Source of the DNA: Prosthecobacter sp.
GTDB taxonomy: Bacteria; Verrucomicrobiota; Verrucomicrobiia; Verrucomicrobiales; Verrucomicrobiaceae
Assembly: GCA_019186985.1 (NCBI GenBank)
Contig: JABARQ010000016.1
Coordinates: 124,001 to 188,000, forward strand
Length of the DNA stretch: 64,000 nt
Direction: 5' to 3'
Shown: positions 22,633 to 24,951 of the stretch, in pieces
How positions within the stretch are numbered: position 1 is the first letter of the stretch
How the letters are laid out: every line of letters starts with the position of its first letter
Program-made: the position numbers and the translations under genes
Notes under the pieces: model-generated
Database searches by the model: none
What the model was told of the DNA's origin: nothing
The model's input: only the letters and a program-made list of their open reading frames with translations

Positions 22633-24951
22633 ATGCCGCCGGACCAGCTCAGCCTTTTTGCCCATGACGCCCCTTCACCAGGGTCGTCCGACGAGGCCAT
22701 GGAGCCTGGTGCAGGGGTGGCGAGGGTGCAGCTGGAAGGGGCGGCGGCCCTGGAGCTGGACTATGCCGTTCCTGAAAAATGGGCTGGGCGCGTCAGCGTC
22801 GGCACACGCGTGACCGTGCCCCTGCAAAACCAGCGGGTGCCGGCGGTTGTCATCGAACTGCTCGAATCCTCCCCGCACCGGCACCGGCTGAAGGAGATCG
22901 CCGGCATCGTGGGTTCGCGCCCCATGTTCACGCCCGGCCTGCTGCGGCTCGCCGACTGGGTGGCGGAGTATTACCTCGTGCCCGTCCACCGCGTGCTGCG
23001 GGCCATGCTTCCCCAGGCCGTGCGCGACCGGCCGGAAACCTTCCTCAAGGACAGCCACCTCAAGCTGGTCAGGGAGCCGGCACCCGAGGTGCTGGACAAG
23101 ATGACAACGCGCGCGCCGCTGCAGGCCAGGCTGCTGGAGGAGCTGCGAAGGCGCGGGGGCGAGGCGACGCTGAGCGACCTGCGCCGCGACCTGCCGAGCG
23201 CCACCACGGTGATCAAGAGCCTTCTCAAGAACGGCTGGATCACACGCGCCGAGATCCGGGTGACACGCGACCCCTTTCAAACCGAGGAGTTCCTGCCGTC
23301 GCAGCCGCTGACGCTGACCGAGGAGCAGCAGGCCGCCTATGACGCAGTGATCGAAGCCGTCCGGAAACCGGCGGATGCGAAGCCGCTGCTGCTGCACGGC
23401 GTCACCGGCAGCGGCAAGACGGAGGTTTACCTGCAGGCGATCACCGACGTGCTGAAGGCGGGAAAAACCGCCCTGGTGCTGGTGCCGGAGATCAGCCTGA
23501 CACCGCAGACCATCGAACGTTTCAAGGCGCGTTTTTCCGAACGCAAGGACAGCATCGCCGTGCTGCACAGCCACCTGAGCGACGGCGAGCGTCATGACGA
23601 ATGGTTCAAGGTGCAGGAGGGCCGCGCGGACATCGTCATCGGCGCCCGCAGCGCCATCTTTGCGCCGCTGGAGCGGCTCGGGCTGATCATCGTCGACGAG
23701 GAGCATGAGCCGAGCTACAAGCAGGAGGACGCGCCTCGTTATCATGCGCGTGACCTCGCCGTCGTGCGCGGCCGGCTGGAGGGCTGCGCCGTGCTGCTCG
23801 GCTCCGCCACGCCGAGCCTGGAGTCGTTTCAAAACGCGCTGACGGGAAAATATGAGCTGCTGCGCATGACGCGGCGCACGGACGGCAAGTCCATGCCGCT
23901 GATCCGCATCATCGACATGCGGCTGCAGCGGCGGAAGGGCACGGGCACCAGCATCGGCAACGCCATGATCCTCTCCGAGCGCCTGCGGACGGCGGTCACC
24001 GCGCGGCTGGAACGGCGCGAACAAACGATTCTCTTCCTCAACCGCCGCGGCTTCCACACCACGCTCGACTGCACCGCCTGCGGCGAGGTCGTGCAGTGCC
24101 AGGACTGCGCCGTGCCGATGACGCTGCACAAGGCGGACAACCGCCTCGTCTGCCACATCTGCGGCGCAAGGCGCGTGCCGCCGACCAAGTGCCCGAGCTG
24201 CAAGGAGCCCGGCCTGAAGTACGGCGGCTTCGGCACCGAACGGGTCGAGGCGGCGGTGCGTGAGGTGTTCCCCCAGGCCCGCATCGCCCGCGTGGACACC
24301 GACACGATGCAGCGGAAGAACCAGCTCCGCGACACCCTGAAGGACTTCCGCGCGCAGAAGCTGGACATCCTCATCGGCACGCAGATGATCGCCAAGGGGC
24401 TCGACTTCCCCAACGTCACGCTCGTCGGCGTGCTGAACGCGGACACCGCCCTGAACCTGCCGGACTTCCGCGCGGCGGAGCGCACGCTGCAGCTGCTGAT
24501 CCAGGTGGCCGGACGCGCCGGGCGCGGCGAGCTGAAGGGCGAGGTGTTCGTGCAGACCTACGCACCGCACAGCCCGGCGATCCAGTTTGCGCGGCATAAC
24601 AACTTCGAAGGATTCGCGGAGCAGGAGCTGGAGCACCGCCAGGCCTTCAAGTACCCGCCCTACGGCCACATGGTGCTCATCAGCAGCCGCGGAAAGCATC
24701 AGACCCAGGCCGAGTTCACCCTGCAGACCCTGCACAAGCGGCTGGAGCAGGGACTTCCGGAAGGAGCGGTCATGGGCGAGCCCTCGCCCTCCTCCCTGGC
24801 GAAGGCGCACGGCCAGTACCGATTTCAACTTCTGCTGCGCACGGAACGCATCCGTCCGCTGGCCCGGCACCTGGGCAAGGTCATGGCCTCCATCACCCTG
24901 CCGCCGGAGATCCTGGTGACCTGGGACGTGGATCCGGTGAGCCTGGGCTAG
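22633..24951 (+). CDS. priA: Primosomal replication protein N' (PriA helicase)
   Basis: PriA recognises stalled or repaired replication forks and reloads the replicative helicase. The 772-residue protein has the N-terminal DNA-binding region, a Walker A motif (LHGVTGSGKTEVYLQ, about 256-263), the DEEH Walker B (IIVDEEHEPSYKQED), the cysteine-rich zinc-binding insert (CTACGEVVQCQDC, then CHICGARRVPPTKCPSC), and helicase C-terminal motifs such as IGTQMIAKGLDFP and QVAGRAGRG. Length and motif order match the family. Residues 5-9 read QLSLF, which equals the consensus motif for binding the DNA polymerase sliding clamp. The ATG at 22633 is the start that includes it. It is convergent with the FAD oxidoreductase gene. 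Confidence 0.96.
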   Translation: MPPDQLSLFAHDAPSPGSSDEAMEPGAGVARVQLEGAAALELDYAVPEKWAGRVSVGTRVTVPLQNQRVPAVVIELLESSPHRHRLKEIAGIVGSRPMFTPGLLRLADWVAEYYLVPVHRVLRAMLPQAVRDRPETFLKDSHLKLVREPAPEVLDKMTTRAPLQARLLEELRRRGGEATLSDLRRDLPSATTVIKSLLKNGWITRAEIRVTRDPFQTEEFLPSQPLTLTEEQQAAYDAVIEAVRKPADAKPLLLHGVTGSGKTEVYLQAITDVLKAGKTALVLVPEISLTPQTIERFKARFSERKDSIAVLHSHLSDGERHDEWFKVQEGRADIVIGARSAIFAPLERLGLIIVDEEHEPSYKQEDAPRYHARDLAVVRGRLEGCAVLLGSATPSLESFQNALTGKYELLRMTRRTDGKSMPLIRIIDMRLQRRKGTGTSIGNAMILSERLRTAVTARLERREQTILFLNRRGFHTTLDCTACGEVVQCQDCAVPMTLHKADNRLVCHICGARRVPPTKCPSCKEPGLKYGGFGTERVEAAVREVFPQARIARVDTDTMQRKNQLRDTLKDFRAQKLDILIGTQMIAKGLDFPNVTLVGVLNADTALNLPDFRAAERTLQLLIQVAGRAGRGELKGEVFVQTYAPHSPAIQFARHNNFEGFAEQELEHRQAFKYPPYGHMVLISSRGKHQTQAEFTLQTLHKRLEQGLPEGAVMGEPSPSSLAKAHGQYRFQLLLRTERIRPLARHLGKVMASITLPPEILVTWDVDPVSLG

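Follow-up and report, generated by a model that had tools for sequence, protein, structure and literature searches.

A clamp-binding-motif-like pentapeptide in the N-terminal tail of the replication restart helicase PriA of Verrucomicrobiaceae

The question raised by this locus is whether the replication restart helicase PriA of a Prosthecobacter species carries, ahead of its DNA-binding domain, a short motif with which it could bind the sliding clamp. The window, by which we mean the whole stretch of 64,000 nucleotides that was analyzed, lies on contig 5 of the genome (5.88 Mb in 55 contigs). The original prediction placed a QLSLF pentapeptide at residues 5-9 of PriA, within a short tail that precedes the DNA-binding domain, and described it as a match to the clamp-binding consensus; for the window protein both statements are borne out. 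In passages of two papers this consensus is given as QL[S/D]LF (PMC13254535; PMC11139829), and a passage of the first of them revises it to Q-phi-x-[LM]-[FL] (PMC13254535); the QLSLF of the window fits both forms. Passages of the same papers describe the motif of the clamp loader delta subunit, AMSLF, which lacks the Gln at position 1, and name LF as the critical part (PMC11139829, PMC13254535). A passage of PMC11139829 regards the roster of bacterial clamp partners as incomplete, and RecF and RecBCD joined it only recently, according to a passage of PMC13254535.

The gene was assigned to priA by two profiles, TIGR00595 (E=1.4e-194) and NF004066, both above their cut-offs, and the protein is 40% identical to E. 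coli PriA. Its Pfam domains are PriA_3primeBD, DEAD, Helicase_C, Zn_ribbon_PriA and PriA_C, and all the parts that define a PriA helicase (3'-DNA-binding domain, helicase, Cys-rich zinc region and C-terminal domain) are present. It is the single full-length PriA match in the whole genome; three other matches are partial and 24-39% identical. The features are collected in Table 1. On the opposite strand an antisense open frame of 731 aa (window 22675-24870, -) spans nearly all of priA and is probably an artefact of codon bias.

Table 1. Features of priA and of its product, in window coordinates
Feature	Position	Strand	Basis or remark
priA, replication restart helicase, 772 aa + stop	22633..24951	+	Profile, domain and E. 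coli matches
N-terminal extension, residues 1-28, predicted disordered	22633..22716	+	E. coli alignment, AlphaFold2
QLSLF, residues 5-9, clamp-binding-motif-like pentapeptide	22645..22659	+	Codons CAG CTC AGC CTT TTT
Alternative in-frame ATG (Met23), 3' of the motif; unlikely to be the true start	22699..22701	+	Upstream motif conserved
PriA 3'-DNA-binding domain (PF17764), residues 39-127	22747..23013	+	Pfam
DEAD/DEAH helicase domain, residues 232-399	23326..23829	+	Pfam
PriA zinc-ribbon (Cys-rich region), residues 489-514	24097..24174	+	Pfam
PriA C-terminal domain (PF18074), residues 676-768	24658..24936	+	Pfam

The N-terminus of the window PriA reads MPPDQLSLFAHDAPSPGSSDEAMEPGAGVARV, its first nine residues being MPPDQLSLF. 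E. coli PriA begins MPVAHV and its third residue aligns with window residue 29, and the alignments to full-length PriA chains of solved structure (PDB 8fak, 4nl4 and others) begin at window residues 29-31. Because E. coli PriA and the solved chains align only from residues 29-31 onward, the window PriA has a 28-residue extension. We used AlphaFold2 on the window PriA and 22 relatives (23 sequences). In the resulting prediction (mean pLDDT 77), residues 1-26 have a pLDDT <50 and the first predicted strand starts at residue 29, and the low pLDDT is consistent with a flexible, accessible tail that would carry QLSLF. Genome-wide, the motif's degenerate DNA pattern was counted 22 times and the reversed pattern 10 times. 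The exact QLSLF is encoded at four places, in PriA and in three other frames, of 505 aa (with a hydrophobic look), 37 aa and 260 aa, the last lacking an upstream start.

The strength of the case lies in the relatives of this protein. The sample for the family Verrucomicrobiaceae (f1) comprised 68 genomes, 67 with a PriA match at E<=1e-60 and 66 with a readable N-terminus; G015, in which the PriA match was absent, and G056, whose match is a fragment without the N-terminus, were left out. Within <=45 residues before the core, Qxx[LM]F was found in 45/66 N-termini, [QED]xx[LM]F in 53/66, LF in 63/66 and a pentapeptide with a final LF or FF ([LMF]F) in 65/66. The absence of the extension or the motif from close relatives, which would have spoken against the original prediction, is thereby contradicted. 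In 500 composition-preserving shuffles of the family tails, which ignore the relatedness of the sequences, the corresponding means were 0.67 for Qxx[LM]F (maximum 4), 1.9 for [QED]xx[LM]F and 8.1 for LF, and a chance origin of the family motif was rejected on the observed 45/66 vs the shuffle mean and maximum. When a uniform start rule was imposed (the 5'-most ATG in the 45 residues that precede the core or, failing an ATG, GTG/TTG), the family counts were 41/66 for Qxx[LM]F and 62/66 for any [LMF]F; they are lower because in some tails started by GTG or TTG the first ATG comes later than the motif. The pentapeptides seen include QLSLF, QLNLF, QLDLF, QSDLF, QTDLF, QVDLF, QPSLF, QASLF, QGMLF and QPNLF. 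The 21/66 N-termini without Qxx[LM]F carry AQSLF (5), EPSLF (3), ERDLF (3), LPDLF (3), DPSLF (2) or the single cases ATDLF, NLGLF, QLSFF and AQSFF, and one (L069) is without any [LMF]F.

The presumed partner is encoded in the same genome, where one DnaN was found, at G000:C17:73452-74537 and 36% identical to E. coli DnaN. At V344, S346 and V361, which we take to be further pocket positions of the E. coli clamp, the organism's own DnaN has V344I, S346P and V361L. At the clamp pocket residues named in a passage of PMC11139829 (R152, H175, P242, R246, V247, M362), it keeps R152, P242, V247 and M362 and is changed at H175R and R246Q. The replicative DnaE has QGGLF aligned exactly with the E. coli QADMF clamp site (920-924), and a Y-family polymerase of the genome carries QMELF (in QMELFPELD). 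PriA is known to have SSB as a partner, as given in a table of PMC3290774 and, for B. subtilis, in a passage of PMC13220808. The acidic tail of the SSB of this genome is kept and ends in DDIPF, so the recruitment of PriA by SSB is probably retained here and a clamp motif would be an addition to it.

Taken from the sequences, the reading that we find likely is that the PriA tail serves as an N-terminal clamp tether resembling that of Hda; binding, leash and role in restart are all putative. A disordered tail would have been gained by the PriA of the family, or kept from an ancestor of the order, and within it a Qx[S/D]LF-type motif for beta-clamp binding would be the best-conserved element. By docking into the peptide pocket of DnaN, the tail could tether PriA to DNA-bound clamps in the way that the Hda tail does. 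The 19 residues between the motif and the folded core would then act as a flexible leash, letting PriA bind branched DNA while it is held by the clamp at a stalled or abandoned fork. The clamp, having two pockets, could be shared between PriA and a polymerase. Such tethering would supplement recruitment by SSB rather than replace SSB, and PriA would be brought to clamps at forks whose replisome was lost.

Binding to the clamp could instead serve regulation, with PriA as a rival of DnaE or of other clients for the pocket; the competition might, for instance, free a stalled polymerase ahead of restart or hold PriA in a parked state. The clamp dimer offers two binding sites to many partners, according to a passage of PMC11139829, and the QLSLF of PriA is nearer to the consensus than the QGGLF of the replicase, so PriA could outcompete DnaE. 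In most members of the family, however, the motif is less ideal than in the window PriA, and the evidence fits competition and tethering alike; we regard this regulatory reading as unlikely.

The fine composition of the motif bears on whether the clamp is the partner at all. The tails were aligned in a profile of 65 rows, which omits the motif-less L069, and identical rows were merged to give 61 distinct ones; the rows were anchored only on the final [LMF]F, so that the conservation of positions 4 and 5 follows from the anchoring itself. Q occupies position 1 in 44/61 distinct tails and S or D occupies position 3 in 48/61, where the background composition of the tails is 4.0% for Q and 15.3% for S+D. 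Binomial p-values computed for this enrichment assume independence of sequences that share ancestry and are not to be read at face value. The entropy is 1.40 bits at position 1 and 2.09 bits at position 3, and 2.3-3.5 bits in the flanking columns. The form Qx[SD][LM]F is fitted by 31/61 distinct rows, and among the 27 distinct pentapeptides 19 have Q at position 1 and 17 have S or D at position 3. Since Q1 and S/D3 are enriched even though the anchoring does not fix them, they point to the clamp motif QL[SD]LF. The flanks are partly conserved, with P at -2 in 32/61 and G at +6 in 27/61, and these two residues are largely confined to a QSDLFG subgroup, which indicates that part of the conservation reflects shared descent.

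Position 2 is a poor fit, being S or P in 30/61 and aliphatic in only 13/61 distinct rows, and the full form Q-phi-x-[LM]-[FL] is found in only 11/61. Together with the 17/61 rows in which position 1 is not Q, and with tails in which the Q comes one residue late (AAQSLF; MQELF and MQDLF in the family f2), this favors a short linear motif for some other partner, such as a helicase loader or another replisome protein of this lineage, that merely looks clamp-like. The two columns that are free of anchoring nevertheless agree with the clamp consensus, and the organism's own DnaE has a motif of this form. The delta subunit, as described in the passages cited above, tolerates the loss of Gln at position 1 with LF as the critical part. 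We consider another partner improbable, slightly more so than a regulatory use of clamp binding, and retain tethering to the clamp as the preferred reading.

A mis-set start of the gene would remove the tail altogether, and the original prediction had named a true start downstream of the motif as grounds for dropping it. Upstream of the motif the sole in-frame ATG, GTG or TTG is the ATG at 22633, the first start codon of the open frame. Possible later starts in the window priA are the ATG of Met23 and the GTG codons at Val29 and Val32, the first residues of the core, and because these later codons are present the true start is not settled by start codons alone. Of the 65 motif-bearing tails of the family relatives, 14 lack a start codon in the stretch from motif to core, a count that drops to 3/65 (L048, L064, L065) once the first four core residues are also scanned for GTG/TTG. 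An in-frame stop lies <=25 codons 5' of the motif in 33/65 tails; a close upstream stop is seen, for instance, in L010 (stop-DLARHFQMPTDQLSLF) and L063 (stop-ISAMPDQPSLF). Both frame and pentapeptide persist among the relatives while the codons of the motif vary synonymously. A start 3' of the motif, at Met23 or at the GTG of Val29, was judged unlikely because motif and frame are conserved, which is a stronger argument than the insufficient one from the start codons.

To see how far the tail extends, we turned to the rest of the order and the phylum. A PriA match was present in 236/240 genomes of the phylum and 183/190 genomes of the order, and N-termini were read from part of these: outside the family, 36 in the sister family f2, 18 in the sister family f57, 6 in f58, 1 in f59, 2 in f60 and 80 in the rest of the phylum. 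Under the uniform start rule given above, any [LMF]F in the tail was found in 62/66 of f1, 9/36 of f2, 1/18 of f57, 1/6 of f58, 1/1 of f59, 1/2 of f60 and 4/80 of the rest of the phylum. Under the same rule Qxx[LM]F was counted in 41 N-termini of f1, 2 of f2 and 1 of f58, and in 0 of f57, f59, f60 and the rest. A motif ending in [LM]F occurs in 0/18 of f57 and 7/36 of f2; being missing from f57 and most of f2, the motif is dispensable there. Eight of the nine f2 cases fall in one genus, g12 (e.g. MQQALFQDE, MQELFSSA, MELFGQS), and the ninth, L272, is ambiguous. In g12 the PriA of L084, L090, L094, L096 and L203-L206 open with MQQALF, MQELF, MQDLF, MELF or a similar sequence that runs straight into the core, and several other PriA of the genus begin with plain MQA; these short N-terminal motifs are possibly remnants or independent gains. 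In the rest of the phylum the motif of L134 looks like chance in a hydrophobic stretch, and a tail of >=10 residues is present in only 24/80 PriA (uniform rule). Phylum-wide conservation of the motif was sought in the 80 PriA from the rest of the phylum and not found. E. coli PriA, the sole PriA of another phylum that was aligned whole, is without N-terminal extension or motif. The clamp-like PriA tail thus characterizes one family, turns up patchily elsewhere in its order and is not a trait of the phylum. The expectation of conservation across Verrucomicrobiota, which accompanied the original prediction, therefore holds within the family (45/66 with Qxx[LM]F), is patchy in the order and fails in the rest of the phylum (0/80).

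That the tail is a short unstructured addition or the product of a mis-set start, with a motif arising by coincidence or surviving as a relic, is very improbable. In its favor, E. coli PriA and most of the other PriA sampled across the phylum outside the order's families listed above have no such tail, GTG stands at the first core residues of the window protein and just 3/65 tails are start-less through the first four of them. Against it stand the shuffles (mean 0.67 vs 45/66), the upstream stops within 25 codons in 33/65 tails and a pentapeptide held in frame despite synonymous codon changes.

A side observation concerns other polymerases and repair proteins of the genome, on contigs outside the window. 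An open reading frame of 1417 aa (L287 1785-6038, G000:C16) combines in one chain a Y-family Pol IV (IMS, IMS_C) and a C-family polymerase of the DnaE2 type, the latter with PHP, Pol III alpha, finger, HHH_6 and OB domains. A second copy of 1397 aa (L288 1463-5656, G000:C17) aligns with the first end to end at 79% identity; the Y-family motif is SIDECYLD in the first copy and SIEECYMD in the second. The fusion was matched at E<=1e-100 in 10/38 genomes of the order that were searched, the other 28 giving no match. Single-frame matches over approximately residues 1-1410 occur elsewhere, in G013, G018, G019 and G059 (f1) and in G302 and G314 (f58), and these end-to-end copies in other genomes make an assembly error unlikely. 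In the part of a 2026 survey of bacterial polymerases that we covered (PMC12926913), such a fusion is not mentioned at 'fused', and words beginning 'fusion' are absent. The end of the first fusion gene is overlapped by the gene of a GIY-YIG protein (L287 6035-6787) whose N-terminus is MSEEVTRAATSRQLKLFHLEN; its QLKLF makes this the second N-terminal clamp-motif-like tail of the genome. Beside each fusion polymerase lies an SRAP-type gene (L287 198-1304, L288 6143-7231), assigned by Pfam for the L287 gene and as a look-alike sequence for the L288 gene, and their C-termini, MPGLKLF (L287) and TPLLNMF (L288), resemble C-terminal clamp motifs.

Among known systems the closest in arrangement is Hda of E. 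coli, which, as described in a passage of PMC11139829, also has its clamp motif in a disordered N-terminus before a folded core. Hda is a DnaA-related regulator of initiation whereas PriA is a fork-restarting helicase, and we claim no homology between the cores. RecB is alike in belonging to a helicase complex of fork repair for which a short motif, QVEMEF, was recently shown to mediate binding to the clamp pocket (a passage of PMC13254535). By the same passage the RecB motif is hexameric and lies inside the nuclease domain of the E. coli protein, whereas that of PriA is pentameric, lies in a terminal tail and is lineage-specific, with putative binding. DnaE (Pol III alpha), with QADMF or QGGLF, has the same pentapeptide form but as an internal site of the replicative polymerase, and the solved PriA proteins and E. 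coli PriA are of the same protein family but have no N-terminal extension. Among the titles and openings of abstracts listed by searches of the open-access literature, a report of PriA binding to the clamp was not found, and the word PriA is absent from the main text of a 2024 clamp review (PMC11139829). A clamp motif in a terminal tail is of a known kind; a PriA that bears one is, as far as we have seen, new.

If PriA binds the clamp, restart would be linked directly to the ring left behind by recent synthesis. The presence of the tail in Verrucomicrobiaceae and its absence from f57 and most of f2 provide a natural comparison among relatives. We suggest tentatively, as an idea that may well be right but that we hold less firmly than the tether itself, that restart in Verrucomicrobiaceae is clamp-directed, PriA being held on nascent-strand clamps by its terminal tag as a second, SSB-independent route to abandoned forks, and that this tag may be part of a wider habit of the lineage, of which the ends of the GIY-YIG and SRAP-type proteins near the fusion polymerases would be further cases, of placing clamp tags at the ends of its DNA repair proteins.
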